Below are positions 1,961-22,532 of a stretch of 23,292 bases of DNA, piece after piece. This stretch comes from a virus. The DNA is taken from positions 1-23,292 of the IMG/VR virus record IMGVR_UViG_3300036389_000010. One strand, 5' to 3'. The stretch's first letter is position 1, and each line of letters opens with the position of its first letter. A program made the position numbers and the translations under genes. A model generated the notes under the pieces. The model saw nothing but the letters and a program-made list of their open reading frames with translations. It was not told the origin of the DNA and searched no databases.

Positions 1961-4299
1961 CCGATTCCGCCGGCGTGGCCGGACATAGCGAAGCTGGCGA
2001 GCAGGATGAGCCCAAGACGGGCGAGTCCAAGCGCTGGCTTTCCATGATCGAAGACGCTGAGCACGCGTTCCGGGATTGGCAGAGCAAGGCCGACAATATC
2101 GACAAGCTCTATGCCAACCTGAATGATCTCGCGAGCGCTGGCCGCGACCGTCAGTTCCAGATGTTCTGGGCCAATATTCAGGTGCTAGGGCCGTCTGTGT
2201 ATTCCCGGCCGCCGGTGCCAGTCGTTGTCCCGCGGTTCAAGGACCGCAAGCCTGTGCCGCGGGCGGCGTCCGAATTGCTCGAGCGCTCGACAAGCGTCGG
2301 CTTCGAGCTGGAAGACATCGACGGCCTGATGCGCGCGGTGCGCGATGACCTTACCGTCGTGGCCCGTGGCTGCGCCTGGGTTCGCTACGAGACCAACGAT
2401 GACGGCAAAGGCCAGCGGGTCTGCTTCGACTTTGCAGACCGTAAGGACTTCCTACATCCCATGGCTCGGACCTGGAAGGAAGTGCCGTGGGTTTCAAAAC
2501 GGTCGTGGCTGACCGAAGACGCCATGGAGAAGCGCTTCAAGAAGCACTCCGGCAATGCCTACGAGAAAGCCTCATACGAGATCCGGAAGGACGATAACGG
2601 CCGAGAGAGCGAGAAGAAGGCCGGCGTTTGGGAGATCTGGCACAAGGAGGAGAACAAGGTCGTTTGGGTCACTGAGGGCGTGGAAGTCACGCTCGACGAG
2701 GACAAGCCGCACCTTGACCTTGAGGGATTCTTCCCGTGTCCGAAGCCGGCATATTCCACGGTTCAGCGCCGGTCGCTGCTGCCCGTGCCGGACATGCTGT
2801 TCTACAAGGACCAGCTTGAGGAGATTAACGAACTGACGGCGCGCATTGGCGCGCTGGCTGATGCAGTGCAGGTCCGCGGCTTCTACCCGGCTGGCGCCGG
2901 CGAGATTGGCGACGCCATCGAGACGGCGATCAAGTCCACCGTCAATAACCAGGTCCTGGTGCCCATCTCCAACTGGGCCATGGTCGGGCAGGGCGGCGTC
3001 AAGGACATGATCGTCTGGCTGCCAATCGACCAGATCACGACCACGATCGTGCAACTCGTGGAGCTTCGCCGGCAGATCATCGAGGACGTGTACGAGATCA
3101 CGGGCCTCTCGGACATCATGCGGGGTGCGACCGAGGCCAGCGAGACGGCCACGGCTCAGCAGCTCAAGAGCCAGTATGGGTCAGTCCGGATCAAGGATAG
3201 GCAGGCCGAGCTGGTGCGCTTCGCGCGCGATCTGGTGCGGATCGCCGCGGAGATCATGGCCGAGAACTTCTTGTCCAAGACGCTTCTGGAGATGTCGCAG
3301 TTCGATATCCCGACCGACGCGGACATCAAGAAACAGATCCAGCCGCTTGAGGCACAGATCAAGCAAATTATCGCCCAAGTCGAGCAGGCCAAGGCTGATC
3401 CGCAGTTGCAAGCGCAGGCTCAGCAAAACCCGCAGGCCGCTCAGCAGGTGCTCCAGCAGGCCCAGCAGCAAGCGCAGGGCCTCAAAGGCCAGATCGACAA
3501 GCTGAACGAGACGGCTACGGTCGAGAAGGTCATGAAGCTGCTTCGTGACCAGAAGATCAGGCCGTTTGTACTGGACATCGAGACGGACTCGACGATTGCG
3601 CCGGACGAGAATGCGCAGAAGCAGCGCGCCACCGAGTTTGTGACCGCTGTCGGCGGCTTCATGGGGCAGGTTATCCCCATGGTGCAGCAGGTGCCGCAGT
3701 CGGCAAAGCTCGCGGCCGAAACCCTGAAATACGTCGCAAGCCAGTTCCGCGCCGGCCGGCAGCTTGAGCAGACCATTGAGGAATTCGCCGACGACATGGC
3801 GGCGGTTGCAGCGCAGCCAAAGCAGGACCCGGCTGCGGCTGAGGGGGCTGCCAAGGCCGAGCAGGTCAAGCAGCAGATGGCCGTCGCGCAGGCTCGGCAT
3901 GACCGCGAGCAGCAGACCGCAGCCGTAGATCAGCAGCGCAAGGACGCCGAGGCCAAGGCGAACCAGGACCGCGAGATTGCGAAATACGACGCAGACATGC
4001 GCGGTAAGGCTGCTGTGCTCGACGCGACGCTCGCCAACCTCGGCGCCGAGGAACAGCGCAAGGCACAGGAGCACGGCCAGGCCATGGACAAGGGCGCTCT
4101 GGAGATCGAAAAGCTGCGGCTCGAGATCGAGGGTGTGAAGGTCAAGACGGCCTCGACGGTCGCGACCACTCAGGCCAAGGTCGATCAGGCTAACACGGCG
4201 ACGGACAACTCGATCCGCTCCACTGATGCGAGCGTGCAGGCAACGGCTGACAGCACTGCAATCAAGCGCGATGCAGCCAAGGCGAAGGAGCCGGCCTGA
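1957..4299 (+). CDS. portal protein (P22-like podovirus type)
   Basis: The portal forms the ring at the capsid vertex through which DNA enters and leaves. I chose ATG at 1957, in an ATGA overlap with the terminase stop, although the frame is open further upstream; this gives 780 residues. The core (about 30-450) has the features of P22-type portals: an N-terminal helical segment, a long helix near 285-310 (DQLEEINELTARIGALADAV), and the conserved stretch around 375-415 (YEITGLSDIMRGATEASETA). Residues about 455-520 are Gln/Ala-rich. The last roughly 150 residues are charged heptad-like coiled coil with many Ala, Gln, Lys and Glu, comparable to the helical barrel of long portals. Its TGA overlaps the next ATG (TGATG). 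Confidence 0.92.
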   Translation: MTDSAGVAGHSEAGEQDEPKTGESKRWLSMIEDAEHAFRDWQSKADNIDKLYANLNDLASAGRDRQFQMFWANIQVLGPSVYSRPPVPVVVPRFKDRKPVPRAASELLERSTSVGFELEDIDGLMRAVRDDLTVVARGCAWVRYETNDDGKGQRVCFDFADRKDFLHPMARTWKEVPWVSKRSWLTEDAMEKRFKKHSGNAYEKASYEIRKDDNGRESEKKAGVWEIWHKEENKVVWVTEGVEVTLDEDKPHLDLEGFFPCPKPAYSTVQRRSLLPVPDMLFYKDQLEEINELTARIGALADAVQVRGFYPAGAGEIGDAIETAIKSTVNNQVLVPISNWAMVGQGGVKDMIVWLPIDQITTTIVQLVELRRQIIEDVYEITGLSDIMRGATEASETATAQQLKSQYGSVRIKDRQAELVRFARDLVRIAAEIMAENFLSKTLLEMSQFDIPTDADIKKQIQPLEAQIKQIIAQVEQAKADPQLQAQAQQNPQAAQQVLQQAQQQAQGLKGQIDKLNETATVEKVMKLLRDQKIRPFVLDIETDSTIAPDENAQKQRATEFVTAVGGFMGQVIPMVQQVPQSAKLAAETLKYVASQFRAGRQLEQTIEEFADDMAAVAAQPKQDPAAAEGAAKAEQVKQQMAVAQARHDREQQTAAVDQQRKDAEAKANQDREIAKYDADMRGKAAVLDATLANLGAEEQRKAQEHGQAMDKGALEIEKLRLEIEGVKVKTASTVATTQAKVDQANTATDNSIRSTDASVQATADSTAIKRDAAKAKEPA

Positions 4300-4619
4300 T
4301 GCGCGGCACTTGGGTCTATCGAGGCGGCAAGCTTGTCGAGAAATTCGGGCCAGAGGACGTGCGGCCCGAGCCTGCGCGGTCTGATCTGCCCATGCCGATG
4401 CTGATCAGCGACGAGATGCAGGCCAGTGAGCACGTTGACGGCCAGTTCTACACGTCGAAGGCGGCCTATCGCGCGGTCACTCGTGCGAATGGGCTCACTG
4501 AGGTTGGCACCGAGCGGCCCAAGCCGCGCAAGCGCCAGCCTGTGAGCGACAAGGCAATTTCCGACGCGGTCGATAAGGCCGTGGCTGACTACAGCAAGGG
4601 CCGGCGTCCGGCCGCTTAG
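4299..4619 (+). CDS. conserved small head-region protein of unknown function
   Basis: This 106-residue protein starts at an ATG sharing one base with the portal stop. It opens with a short strand-like motif (MRGTWVYRGGKLVEK) and contains a central block (LISDEMQASEHVDGQFYTSK) followed by AYRAVTRANGLTEVG. I associate this arrangement with small proteins lying between portal and scaffold in alphaproteobacterial podovirus-like phages, but know of no assigned function. It has no cysteine, signal peptide or membrane segment. The C-terminus is basic and helical. Coupling to the portal suggests a role in head assembly or in controlling scaffold expression; this is inference from position. Confidence 0.75.
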   Translation: MRGTWVYRGGKLVEKFGPEDVRPEPARSDLPMPMLISDEMQASEHVDGQFYTSKAAYRAVTRANGLTEVGTERPKPRKRQPVSDKAISDAVDKAVADYSKGRRPAA

Positions 4620-4646: not shown

Positions 4647-5804
4647 ATGACCGATGCAGCCATTGTCGCTGATAGCGCCCCCGTGTCCGACGCGCCCGCT
4701 GGGGGCGCCGTCATCAACGAGAACGCTCCAGGCTTCAATTCGCCGCTCGGCTCGCAGATTCCGCCCGACGCTCAGGCCAAGCCGGATGTTCCGGCCAAGC
4801 CCGCATCGCTCGACGACAGCATTGATCGCGCCATTGCGAAGAGCCAAGAGAAGCAGGCCGCGGCCGCCAAGACGCCCGAGCCCAAAGCCGACGCCAAGGC
4901 CGATGCGAAGGTTGAGCCAAAGGAGCCGCAGGCGCGCGGCGAGGGTGGCAAGTTCGCGGCCAAGGAGCCGGTGGTCGATCCGAAGGCCGCGCCGGCGCCG
5001 AAAGTGGCTGAGCCGGCCAAGCAGAGCTTCACGGCCAGCGACGCGCCCTCGCGCTTCTCGGACGATGCCAAGAAGGAATGGGCGACCGCGCCCGAGTCCG
5101 TGCGTCGTGAGACCGAGCGCGCGATCAAGGAGCTGACGGACGGCTTCCAGAAGTACAAGGGCGCGGCCGAGCGTGACGGTACTCTGAACGAATTCCACGA
5201 CATGGCGAAGGCCAGCGGCAAGGAGCTGTCCGGCGTCGTCCGTGAATATGTCAACATGGAGAACAAGCTTCGTCAGGACCCGATCGGCGGCCTGGACATG
5301 ATCTGCCAGCGCATGGGGCTGTCGCTGCGTGATGTGGCCGCTCATGTGATGGGCCAGAAGCCAGAGCAGGTGGCGAGCCAGCAGGACGCGACGATCCGTG
5401 AGCTGCGCGCCGAGCTTACCGCGATCAAGGAACAGGTCGGCGGCGTCACCCAGACGCTCCAGCAGCAGAGCCGCGATGCGACGCTCACTGAAGTCAACAA
5501 ATTCGCAGCGGATCATCCCCGCTTTGAAGAACTGGCCGACGCGATCAGCGAAGAGCTGAAGCACGGCTATTCGCTTGCCGAGGCCTATAGCAGAGCGGAG
5601 CGGCTCAACCCCGCACCCGCGGCAGCAGCCAAGGAAGATCCTCTCGCAGCCTCATCCGCTGCACCCGAGCCCCCGGTTCAACCCGACAAGGGCCAGAAGT
5701 CCATCAACGGCGCACCTTCCGCGGGCTCAACCCCGGCAGCGAAGAAGCGCGTTCCCAAATCCCTCGATGAAGCCCTTGACCGTGCCTTCGGGCAGGTGGG
5801 CTAG
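4647..5804 (+). CDS. putative scaffolding protein
   Basis: The 385-residue product lies between portal and major capsid, the standard place for a scaffold that templates prohead assembly and then leaves. Residues 1-130 are low-complexity Ala/Pro/Lys/Glu sequence, probably disordered. The middle is helical and contains a predicted coiled coil around 240-275 (TIRELRAELTAIKEQVGG). The C-terminus is basic and helical (KKRVPKSLDEALDRAF), resembling the short basic end by which P22-type scaffolds bind coat protein. A Shine-Dalgarno-like GGAG lies 8-12 bases upstream of ATG 4647. Low sequence conservation is normal for scaffolds, so the call rests on position, composition and the basic tail. Confidence 0.8.
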   Translation: MTDAAIVADSAPVSDAPAGGAVINENAPGFNSPLGSQIPPDAQAKPDVPAKPASLDDSIDRAIAKSQEKQAAAAKTPEPKADAKADAKVEPKEPQARGEGGKFAAKEPVVDPKAAPAPKVAEPAKQSFTASDAPSRFSDDAKKEWATAPESVRRETERAIKELTDGFQKYKGAAERDGTLNEFHDMAKASGKELSGVVREYVNMENKLRQDPIGGLDMICQRMGLSLRDVAAHVMGQKPEQVASQQDATIRELRAELTAIKEQVGGVTQTLQQQSRDATLTEVNKFAADHPRFEELADAISEELKHGYSLAEAYSRAERLNPAPAAAAKEDPLAASSAAPEPPVQPDKGQKSINGAPSAGSTPAAKKRVPKSLDEALDRAFGQVG

Positions 5805-16778: not shown

Positions 16779-18185
16779 ATGGATAGTATTCGACCGAAGG
16801 ATCTGCCCGAGGCAACTACCGCTGGCGCTGGGGACAAGCTCATTATTGATGGTTCGACTGCTCGAAGCATCGAGGTCAAAAACCTCATGCACAACCTGAT
16901 CATCAGTTATGCGCCAGCAAATCCAGCCAATGCAGCGATCTACTCTGCCTCGGATGACCCGCCTGTCGGCTATTCTGGATTTTACAATGCATTGCAAATT
17001 TCGCAGGGCGCCCCTATGCCCGCTAATCAGCAATATCTCGGGGGTGCAGTGCCTGTGCGTCAGGCAATCGTCGGAACGTCTGTCATCCCCGCGACCGATA
17101 CGACGACTTGGCAGGCCGCAGGCGTCGCCGGTTATGCGCGCGGAGACATTGCCGGGACTGGGCGGAATCTAGTCGGCATCTTCGGCCAAGCGACGACGAC
17201 GGTCGCCAACGCGAATCTGTTCGGTGGTAACGCTCTCGCCGTTAACAACGACGGATCGACAAGCACAGTCGGGTTTGATGCGAACTACGTCACTGCATTT
17301 GAGTTCAACGTAAACCTTTGGAAGAAATCTGGCGGCGCCGATCCAACGATTCTGGGCGGCCACGTTTACGGCATCACGGTTGCCGGCAGTGGAAACATAG
17401 CCGGCCAGATCGCCGGATCTGCCGGTGTTGTCGTCAACCAAATGTGTGTTGCGACGAACATCCCTTGGAATTTTGCATTCCAGACATATGATGGCGCTGC
17501 CACTATTGGCGTCAGTCTTGGGACCAATGGTACTGGCAACAATGTCAACGGCCAGCCCTTGCGATCTACGGGCCGCGATGCTGGAGGTACGGCGCACACC
17601 ATTGACGTTCATTGTGATCCGAACGGGGCCTTGATCCTTGCTCCGGATGGCGCGTCTACCGTCGTAGCGCATCTGTCGGGCATCGGCGGATCCACGGTCT
17701 TTCAAACCGGGAACGTCTTTGGCAACGCCAAGATCAACGTGCCTGCACTCGCTACGGCTGGCGTTATCACTAATGATGCCTCCGGCAATTTCATCAGCAC
17801 GACGTCGCTTGGACTAGCTGGATCTATTAAAAGCAGCGGTACCGCCGGCGTCGGTTACACCACCGGCGCAGGTGGCACGGTCACTCAGGCTACCAGCAAA
17901 TCAACCGGCGTCACGCTCAACAAGGTGAGCGGCCAGATCACCATGAACAATGCGGCTCTGGGAAGCGGTTCATCGGTTAGCTTCACGCTGACCAACTCGA
18001 CCATTGCCGCAACTGACATTCCCCTTGTCGCTATCGCGACCGGCGCGACAGCCGGCGCTTATCGCATCATCGTCGATGCTATCGCGGCCGGCAGTTGCCA
18101 AATATCTCTGACGAACGGCACCGGCGGCTCGCTGAGTGAATCCTTAGTGCTGAACTTCTGCGTCATCAAGGGCGTTTCAGCGTGA
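16779..18185 (+). CDS. tail fibre / tail spike-like protein
   Basis: The 468-residue product begins with an adaptor-like N-terminus (IRPKDLPEATTAGAGDKLII) of the kind that joins phage fibres to the tail. The middle (60-350) is Gly/Ala/Thr/Asn-rich and beta-like, suitable for a trimeric spike or fibre. The last roughly 110 residues (from GGTVTQATSKSTGVTLNKVS, then ITMNNAALGSGSSVSFTLTN) form a C-terminal domain widely reused at the ends of phage tail proteins, probably for trimerisation or receptor contact. No enzymatic motif is evident. The closest Shine-Dalgarno-like AAGGA is only 1-2 bases from the ATG, so initiation may depend on coupling to the upstream gene. Its 3' end overlaps the convergent acyltransferase by 20 bp. 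Confidence 0.83.
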   Translation: MDSIRPKDLPEATTAGAGDKLIIDGSTARSIEVKNLMHNLIISYAPANPANAAIYSASDDPPVGYSGFYNALQISQGAPMPANQQYLGGAVPVRQAIVGTSVIPATDTTTWQAAGVAGYARGDIAGTGRNLVGIFGQATTTVANANLFGGNALAVNNDGSTSTVGFDANYVTAFEFNVNLWKKSGGADPTILGGHVYGITVAGSGNIAGQIAGSAGVVVNQMCVATNIPWNFAFQTYDGAATIGVSLGTNGTGNNVNGQPLRSTGRDAGGTAHTIDVHCDPNGALILAPDGASTVVAHLSGIGGSTVFQTGNVFGNAKINVPALATAGVITNDASGNFISTTSLGLAGSIKSSGTAGVGYTTGAGGTVTQATSKSTGVTLNKVSGQITMNNAALGSGSSVSFTLTNSTIAATDIPLVAIATGATAGAYRIIVDAIAAGSCQISLTNGTGGSLSESLVLNFCVIKGVSA

Positions 18186-19185
18186 CGGGAGCCAAACTAG
18201 TCCCGCTGTCCCGCCAAAGTCTGGCAATCCTTATCCCTGGCCTCTCGATGAACCGCTCCGTTAGATAGGAGAGGGCGAACGTAATAACAAGGAAGGATGG
18301 AGTATCGAGTACGTTCGGTAGCTTCTCGTATGGCAGGTAATCTAGAACCACGGCGTGGACGAGATAGAGCGAGAAAGAAATGCGGCCGATCCACGCAATG
18401 AAATTGTTCTTGAGTATGGTTTTGGACGCGTGATGATGAAGGATGGCTATGGCGCACAGTAGTGCGGCAATGCTCATCTCGAGATGCCAATGGGTGAGCA
18501 CTGCAATTTTGGCAATTGCTAAGTTCGCAAGCAGAGCTCCCCAGAACCACCACCGAGAGGAGAATAGTCCGACTATGTTGGAGTTCTTCTCGATCAACAA
18601 CGCGCAGATGGCGCCATACATGAGTTGGTCCAAATAGAGTACGGTTAGCCACTGATCGTTGCCTATGGGCCAACTCTCTGGCGTGCCGCCGTCATTGTTC
18701 TTCGCCCAAATGCTGACACCGATCAAAATTGCGATCACAAGCGGCAACAGACCGCGATTGTAGGTCAGTGCGAAGACGACGGGAAAGAGGAGATAGAACC
18801 AAAACTCTGCATGCAGAGACCATGCAACTGCTGTTGCGTATCCAGTGTCCTTCGGAAGGTGGGTGAACGTTAGTAGTCCAGGTAACCCGTCGATAAGGCG
18901 GGGAAGTATTTCTGGATGAAAGCCCCAAGCTAGGATGACGGCGACCCCCAACGTCGTCATGTAGAGCGGGAAGATCCGCATGAACCTGCGGAAGATGAAA
19001 CCCGCGATATCGGGGGGCGAAAGGCTGTGCATCCTGATCAATATCCGAGTGATCAGGAAGCCGCTGAGACAGAAGAAGATGCTCACTCCGATTGAGCCGC
19101 CGGGCATCTTGCCCTTGTGGCAAAGCAGAACGAGCAGCGCGGCAAACGCGCGGATGTAGTCGTAATAGGCGTCCCTCTGGCCCAT
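18166..19185 (-). CDS. acyltransferase 3 family membrane protein (O-antigen/exopolysaccharide acylation)
   Basis: The 339-residue multi-spanning inner-membrane protein has the length of a stand-alone acyltransferase 3 (OafA-type) enzyme that transfers acetyl groups to envelope polysaccharides. TM1 carries the family's R-X10-H signature, Arg12 to His23 in YIRAFAALLVLLCHKG. Then come GGSIGVSIFFCLSGFLIT and FRRFMRIFPLYM, and near the C-terminus the ERPGIRIAR ending common in the family. AGGAA about 8 bases before ATG 19185 is a plausible Shine-Dalgarno. It is the only large minus-strand gene in the window and its DNA looks visibly richer in A/T than its neighbours, both signs of an acquired moron. 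In phages such genes typically change the lysogen's O-antigen and block related phages; that role here is inferred. Confidence 0.88.
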   Translation of the reverse strand: MGQRDAYYDYIRAFAALLVLLCHKGKMPGGSIGVSIFFCLSGFLITRILIRMHSLSPPDIAGFIFRRFMRIFPLYMTTLGVAVILAWGFHPEILPRLIDGLPGLLTFTHLPKDTGYATAVAWSLHAEFWFYLLFPVVFALTYNRGLLPLVIAILIGVSIWAKNNDGGTPESWPIGNDQWLTVLYLDQLMYGAICALLIEKNSNIVGLFSSRWWFWGALLANLAIAKIAVLTHWHLEMSIAALLCAIAILHHHASKTILKNNFIAWIGRISFSLYLVHAVVLDYLPYEKLPNVLDTPSFLVITFALSYLTERFIERPGIRIARLWRDSGTSLAPVTLKRP

Positions 19186-19313: not shown

Positions 19314-19943
19314 ATGACCGAGCCGGCCGCAATTCGCTTTAACAACCCTGGAGCCATGTGGGGAACGGGGAACTCGATCGCCACGAAATGGGGATCGACC
19401 AGCACCACCACCCTCAACGATGGCCTCGGTCAAGGCAACAACATCGCTTTCTTCCCTACGAAAGTTCAGGGGGCATGCGCACAATTCGACCTATGGCGAT
19501 CCTCTAAGAACTATCGCAACAAGACGTTGGCATCTGCCATCTCGACCTGGAGCGGTGGGAACTATGTCTCGAGCTACCTCAATTTCCTGACCGATCGTGT
19601 GCCGGGGCTGACGGCTAGCACGGTGATTGACGAGGCCTATCTTCGATCTCCGAACGGGATCGCCCTCATGAAGGCGCAGGCTTGGCACGAGTCCGGCAAG
19701 CCGTACCCGATGACCGATGGCGAATGGGCTGAAGCCCAGCGCCGTGTGTTTGCGAGCAAGGCGCCAACGATCCCGACAACCAAAGCCGCGACGACTGCCG
19801 TTGTCGTGAACACGGCCACGGCAACAGCGGCGGCGCAGGCGCATTCCTCCGGCGCATCACCCGTGGTCGTCATTTGCATCATCGCCGCTGGCCTCATCGC
19901 CGCGGCGATCGCTTGGTACTTCATCCACAAGAGGGCTGCCTGA
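19314..19943 (+). CDS. endolysin-like protein with C-terminal transmembrane anchor
   Basis: The 209-residue product starts at ATG 19314 behind GGAG at 5-base spacing. Residues 1-150 form a globular domain starting AAIRFNNPGAMWG, with FFPTKVQGACAQFDLWRSSK, ISTWSGGNYVSSYLNF and AQAWHESGKPYPMTDGEWAE. I associate this with peptidoglycan-active, lysozyme-like proteins of alphaproteobacterial phages; candidate acidic residues include the Glu of WHESG, but I cannot assign the active site. An Ala/Thr-rich linker (150-180) leads to one hydrophobic segment at about 183-203 (VVVICIIAAGLIAAAIAWYF) and a basic end HKRAA. No N-terminal signal is visible. Gene order with a holin-like gene supports a lysis role. 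The tail anchor is unusual for an endolysin. Confidence 0.75.
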   Translation: MTEPAAIRFNNPGAMWGTGNSIATKWGSTSTTTLNDGLGQGNNIAFFPTKVQGACAQFDLWRSSKNYRNKTLASAISTWSGGNYVSSYLNFLTDRVPGLTASTVIDEAYLRSPNGIALMKAQAWHESGKPYPMTDGEWAEAQRRVFASKAPTIPTTKAATTAVVVNTATATAAAQAHSSGASPVVVICIIAAGLIAAAIAWYFIHKRAA

Positions 19944-21185: not shown

Positions 21186-21434
21186 TTGGCAATGACGATT
21201 GTCCGCGTCACGAGCGGAGGCATTCCCGCGGTCGAGTCCGATAAGGGGCTGCCATATTACGAGGCTGATAACGGGTTTGGCATTCCGGTGAACTTCGGCA
21301 GCACTGGCATTCCCCTTGGGAGAGCAATCTATGGACCGCCGCCTCAAAACGCCACCGCAAATGCAAAACCCCTGATTGGCGCAGATGGCGCCCCCCTTCG
21401 TGGCGCAGATGGCGCCCAACTTTGGAGCACTTGA
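21186..21434 (+). CDS. small fibre-associated protein with Gly-Ala-Asp-Gly repeat
   Basis: About 82 residues are encoded. I prefer TTG 21186, 9 bases after AAAGG, over ATG 21192 two codons later. The N-terminal half has short repeating strands (VRVTSGGIPAVESDKGLPYY, then EADNGFGIPV) of the kind seen in small proteins next to phage fibre genes. The C-terminus has a tandem repeat GADGAPLR-GADGAQLW encoded by a 24-bp DNA period. It lies 3 bp before the SGNH esterase gene and probably shares its transcript. No function is known. Confidence 0.6.
   Translation: MAMTIVRVTSGGIPAVESDKGLPYYEADNGFGIPVNFGSTGIPLGRAIYGPPPQNATANAKPLIGADGAPLRGADGAQLWST
21377..21417 (+). repeat. 17-bp perfect direct repeat, 24-bp period
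   Basis: TGGCGCAGATGGCGCCC occurs at 21377-21393 and again at 21401-21417, in frame within the small fibre-associated gene. It encodes the repeated GADGA unit. It may be a slippage or duplication product. Confidence 0.8.
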
Positions 21435-21437
21435 CGT

Positions 21438-22532
21438 ATGGCTACGCCTCGCATGATTCCGGATCTCGATCCGTCCAAGCTCATGAACTACCGGGCCGCG
21501 CGGTCCCTTAAAACGCGTAACACCCGTATCGCCTTCATCGGTGACAGCACTGGCGCCGGCACCGAGACGGGCGGCACTACCGCCCAGGTTCTGCACTCGA
21601 TCCCGATGCAGATGGCGGCGAAGCTCAGGGCGCGCGGGATCAATGCCGGCGCCAACAACCGCTTTGGCTGCGCCAGCGGCACCTTCTCGACGCTCCTCAC
21701 GATGGACAGCCGCGTCACGTCAACCGGCGCATGGACGCAGGGCGCAACCCTTGTGCAGGGCGGTAACGCCTTTGCGTGTGCGGCTGCGGGATCAATGACG
21801 TTTGCGCCGCAGGACAACATCACCAAGTTTGACCTCTTCTATCGCGACGGCGCAGCAGGTCGAAACATCACCTACAACGTGGACGCGGGCGGCACGACGG
21901 CGCTGAACTCGTCGGGCACGACGCAGATCACCAAGACCAATATCAACGCTGGCACGTCGGGCGCGCACTCACTCACTCAGACCTGGGCGCTCGGCTCCAT
22001 CACATCGATCGGTGTTGATGCCTACGACGACACGAACGGCCGGCGTGAGTTGTCCATCTGGAACTGGTCGATTGCCGGCGCAACGTCACTTCAGATGATT
22101 GATAATTCCGATACCGTGACAGGTCGGCTAGCGGAGATTTCTTCAGGAAAATCTTTGATGACGCCGGATTTAGCGATCATCAGAATGGGCATCAACGATT
22201 GGCGCACCTCGGTTTCGGTTGCGTCGATGGTCGCGAGCTAGACGACTCTGGTTAACGCGTTCCTGGCTAACGGCTGCGATGTGATCTTGGCCACGCCTCG
22301 GTTCGATGGCTCGAGCACGGGCCTCGCTGCTCAGCAGGAAGACTATGCGAACGCGATTCGCGCCCTCGGCCCGACGTTGGGTGTTCCAGTGCTGGACGCG
22401 CGGGCGTATTTCGGCTCCTACGCCATCGGCAACACGGCCGGCTGGTACAGCGACACGGTACATGGCGATACCGGCGGCGCCAGCTATGGCGAAGAGGCCG
22501 AATATTTCGTGCGGGCGTTGCTCACAGTATGA
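21438..22532 (+). pseudogene. SGNH/GDSL esterase interrupted by an in-frame amber codon
   Basis: Reading through TAG at 22239-22241 gives a 364-codon frame. Block I is at residues 34-38 (IGDST, nucleophile Ser37), and block III, GIND, at 251-254 (RMGINDW). Block V, DTVH with Asp339 and His342, lies after the amber, which is codon 268. As written, translation stops at 267 residues and lacks the Asp/His pair. The frame after the stop stays open for 96 codons and reads as good protein (NGCDVILATPRFDG), so the break is recent, recoded or a sequencing error. Between blocks I and III is a beta-rich insertion of about 150 residues, probably a jelly-roll for glycan binding. Such proteins deacetylate surface polysaccharides; here a virion-associated esterase is inferred from proximity to a fibre-type gene. 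Confidence 0.82.

Follow-up and report, generated by a model that had tools for sequence, protein, structure and literature searches.

Does the amber codon that interrupts an SGNH esterase gene in this phage mark an enzyme that has been inactivated, a protein still made through the stop, or a base misread in the consensus? The source is a single virus record of 23,292 bases, the whole of which is referred to here as the window, and the TAG is read from its consensus. The esterase frame opens with an ATG that is preceded by an in-frame TGA at 21432, and the features considered are listed in Table 1. The initial annotation had described a single in-frame TAG at codon 268 of a 364-codon frame that splits an SGNH esterase, and this description was borne out both by the frame and by homology: Ser37 (in the motif GDST), the GIND block (251-254) and Asp339/His342 were found at the places claimed, with the DxxH block past the stop. 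It had also held that no frameshift is needed, which agrees with both sides lying in one frame and matching adjoining profile columns; a frameshift origin was rejected on the same two grounds.

Table 1. Positions in the window of the interrupted esterase gene, its parts and the other genes compared with it.
Feature	Position	Strand	Basis or content
O-acetyltransferase, O-antigen acetylase kind	18166..19185	-	Pfam Acyl_transf_3, phrog_3333
Small 80-aa open frame immediately 5' of the esterase	21192..21434	+	Sequence; no Pfam match
Esterase frame, 364 codons	21438-22532	+	ATG 21438 to TGA 22530-22532
Esterase as translated, 267 aa	21438..22238	+	Block I with Ser37, CBM35-like beta insert ~93-196, block II region, GIND 251-254 (block III), helix 261-277 up to a third of its length
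In-frame amber codon 268 (TAG)	22239..22241	+	Within predicted helix 261-277; site aliphatic in all relatives
Rest of the esterase gene, 96 codons plus TGA, untranslated as read	22242..22532	+	Strand 281-285, helix 297-314, helices 321-333, Asp339/His342, C-terminal helix 348-363
Control gene ending in TAG	4647..5804	+	Same end point in 10 of 12 relatives (TAG, TAA or TGA), the other two within 2 codons

A profile was built from 14 relatives with the window sequence excluded, and the whole frame was scored against it with an X at the stop (Z=1000). The joined frame reached 235 bits, the N part 160 and the C part 62 (E 2e-18 for the C part), and the matched columns ran from 22 to 277 for the N part and from 281 to 370 for the C part, leaving a gap of only a few columns around the stop. 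The Pfam family Lipase_GDSL_2 (PF13472) crossed the stop as one domain, with 48.7 bits for the read-through frame (cut-off 32.9, E 1.7e-12) versus 17.8 and 21.4 bits for the two parts separately, the first of these values being that of the 267-aa product as translated, which falls under the cut-off. The block I Ser, the block III Asn and the block V Asp and His are all encoded by the DNA frame; Ser37, Asn253 and His342 were invariant in an alignment of 15 sequences, and Asp339 in one of four. As read from sequence, this homology is decisive for taking the 96 codons 3' of the TAG to be the remainder of the same esterase gene. The open length after the amber codon is weak evidence of one gene (96 codons to the TGA; p ~0.05 by chance from base composition), and several other window genes also precede long open frames. 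GC3 is equal on both sides of the stop (0.76 and 0.75). Because neither the catalytic residues nor the codon bias shows damage 3' of the stop, the change should be either recent or not real.

The relatives, about 27 in all, were gathered stepwise: Gordonia phage Erutan, which was the one distant match in a tblastn search of phages; two genomes from a Rhizobiales/Alphaproteobacteria sample; 15 viral contigs found by an alignment scan; and further contigs and annotated actinophages. They are distant (22-32% identity). In none of them does a stop fall anywhere in the domain, and in most the C-terminus lies no more than 1-3 residues from the final profile column, which is also the end point of the window frame. 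Homologues ending at residue 267, which had been named beforehand as the finding that would speak against a split gene, numbered 0 of ~27, and conservation of the stop, the mark of programmed readthrough, was likewise seen in 0 of ~27. No close relative of the esterase was returned by single-sequence searches of viral contigs, genome contigs and plasmids, a 39-base pattern that covered the stop site but allowed any codon there gave no match, a DNA search of phages with the esterase gave none either, and no solved structure similar to it in sequence was found.

A structure was modelled for the read-through frame (pTM 0.85, mean pLDDT 78), and the top solved structure in the fold search was Ape1 from Campylobacter jejuni (PDB 8GKD; TM 0.71/0.72, E 6.6e-16), matched over almost the full length. 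Ape1 is a peptidoglycan O-acetylesterase whose SGNH core carries a CBM35-like domain between block I and the rest, placed at residues 104-221 in Ape (PMC6174289), and the window protein is laid out alike, with beta strands 93-196 of the model placed after Ser37 and ahead of the core's second half. Judged by the model, the frame encodes an SGNH O-acetylesterase of Ape1-like fold into which a CBM35-like domain is inserted, although the protein differs from Ape1 in being only 12% identical, phage-encoded and interrupted by a stop. Its substrate, as far as the fold tells, could equally be peptidoglycan, O-antigen or capsule.

The nearest predicted viral structures, at TM 0.70-0.78, belong to hydrolases and to minor tail and tail fibre proteins. 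In Arthrobacter, Gordonia and Klebsiella phages, SGNH esterases occur in minor tail, tail fibre and 'hydrolase' proteins. The SGNH tail esterases G7C gp63.1 and the Klebsiella prophage receptor-binding proteins, in which SGNH domains are frequent and two are proven esterases (PMC13123978), form the comparison group. These tail esterases are intact, whereas the window protein is cut by the stop and begins only ~27 residues ahead of the core, which leaves it practically without an N-terminal anchor domain. The sequence relatives are located among virion genes (terminase, portal and major head protein). The window esterase was probably part of the virion or attached to it, and its likely role is the deacetylation of surface polysaccharide during adsorption. 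As a separate observation, the esterase homologue adjoins a phage portal gene in the relatives L038 and L046 (in L038 also a terminase gene), as well as the portal gene in Gordonia phage Erutan, a portal-side place that is unusual for a tail enzyme.

In the model, residue 268 sits in the middle of helix 261-277, the apolar face of which is made up of positions 264, 268, 271 and 272. All 23 aligned relatives have Leu, Met, Ile or Val at this residue, as do all 14 of the curated set; the Gln, Glu, Lys or Trp codon from which the initial annotation had derived the TAG has no counterpart among the 23. An aliphatic codon can also become TAG by one substitution, so that a point nonsense change is still a sufficient cause.

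The explanation we prefer, with a probability of about 0.7, is that a recent nonsense mutation inactivated a phage SGNH O-acetylesterase. By this account the gene would have been interrupted recently, when one change turned codon 268 into an in-frame nonsense codon, and translation would end inside the helix that follows block III. The product given by the standard code is without Asp339 and His342, and it would lose, together with these catalytic residues, core strand 281-285 and the C-terminal helices. Hydrolysis should be lost, because two of the three catalytic residues reside in block V (PMC9487903); the hydrolase would then be dead, and the 267-aa fragment probably unstable. A short product able to bind but unable to cut glycan had been proposed at the outset, and this proposal stands in one respect, that the whole CBM35-like insert precedes the stop, but becomes doubtful in another, that the insert is embedded in an SGNH core which the stop cuts. 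With the insert predicted to be intact in sequence and half of the core that hosts it missing, stable glycan binding is uncertain. In itself, such a stop is commonplace. If it is real, a phage O-acetylesterase would have been knocked out naturally and observed at an early stage, with the remainder of the gene not yet decayed, which would be in keeping with a phage population for which acetyl removal is no longer necessary.

Of the three options put forward with the initial annotation, nonsense mutation is thus the one preferred and sequencing error comes second, whereas no positive evidence was obtained for readthrough or suppression. An error of sequencing or assembly in the consensus, with the phage esterase really intact, is unlikely but carries real weight: one wrong base would look identical, all the relatives are intact, the gene shows no other damage, and no second lesion was seen in the window genes that have relatives, among the blastx matches listed. 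Substitution errors in an assembled consensus are rare, and few of them create a stop, and we infer that the change arose in the phage rather than in the assembly. A defective prophage in gradual decay, of which the stop would be one lesion among several, is improbable. The structural genes (terminase, portal, scaffold, major capsid protein (MCP) and tail) match viral and Hyphomicrobiales contigs, with 97% identity for the MCP and 92% for the terminase to related contigs among the blastx matches listed, and the MCP relatives include Hyphomicrobiales genome contigs, a sign that the phage group can be temperate; however, among the blastx matches listed there was no other broken structural gene in the 23 kb, in-frame stops in true gene frames occurred only upstream of starts, and neither host flank nor integrase was recognised in the 23-kb fragment. 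Reinitiation at the in-frame GTG at 22281, 13 codons past the stop, by which the C and N parts would associate into a split enzyme, is the least probable of the alternatives, as no ribosome-binding site is visible in the sequence before 22281, a start there would omit the remainder of the broken helix, and no relative is split.

Partial readthrough or suppression, by which the short form would bind glycan and the long form hydrolyse it, draws on a frame that is open and coherent past the stop, on the position of the CBM35-like insert (~93-196) before it, and on the precedent of TAG recoding in some phages, where Gln is the usual amber insertion (PMC10607447). It is nevertheless judged quite improbable, below even prophage decay. 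The stop is absent from all ~27 relatives and falls, in the model, within a core helix and not at a domain border; a Gln would land where all 23 aligned relatives have an aliphatic residue, and a Gln-inserting suppressor would, on the model, put a polar side chain into the apolar face. No stimulatory RNA structure beyond that of shuffled sequence was detected after the stop (z 0.42 and 1.17), and a third stretch, spanning the stop, gave z -0.64 versus shuffled sequence. The 23,292-base fragment held no tRNA gene, suppressors included, and no Rfam match. A leaky switch, by which translation would mostly finish at residue 267 while a small number of read-through copies in each virion supplied the active esterase, is very doubtful; were it true, one gene would yield both glycan-binding and glycan-cutting forms.

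The use of TAG elsewhere in the window also bears on readthrough. Three other genes end in TAG (325-615, 4299-4619 and the control gene at 4647-5804), and the relatives of 325-615 and 4299-4619 stop at or near the same point; since the relatives of the TAG-ended genes stop at those places, TAG serves as a true terminator in this phage, which argues against its being read through. Amber recoding across the whole phage was rejected, as one gene only is interrupted and TAG terminates three others. The window resembles phAss-1 in having an in-frame TAG inside a phage gene of structural type; in phAss-1, by contrast, 41 ORFs contain TAG, suppressor tRNAs are encoded and the recoded sites take Gln (PMC10607447), whereas the window has one such TAG, at an aliphatic site, in a fragment without a suppressor tRNA. 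The genes at 4299-4619 and 4647-5804 share a frame and are separated by the TAG at 4617 and nine codons; this TAG is a real gene border, because the relatives also end the first gene nearby.

Around the esterase, the 80-aa frame directly upstream is probably co-transcribed with it. In the closest relative for which there is sequence at that end of the tail region, the place is taken by another acetylesterase, which is intact and of the SASA family (PF03629; L021:20303-21235), and 0 of 23 related records hold a close copy of the window esterase; on these two grounds the end of the tail region is regarded as an exchangeable esterase slot, which suggests that its content is exchanged often. The O-acetyltransferase gene is reversed relative to its neighbours and lies ~2.2 kb from the esterase, of which it is a possible functional partner. 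The presence of acetylating and deacetylating genes in one phage is suggestive of surface conversion together with a tool against it. A gene for the same kind of O-acetyltransferase directly adjoins the esterase homologue in another relative (L041:4384-5502, minus strand). Between the two window genes, positions 19314-19943 encode a 209-aa protein without a PHROG or Pfam match, relatives of which, 54-73% identical, occur in eleven soil-type viral contigs, most of them without the esterase.
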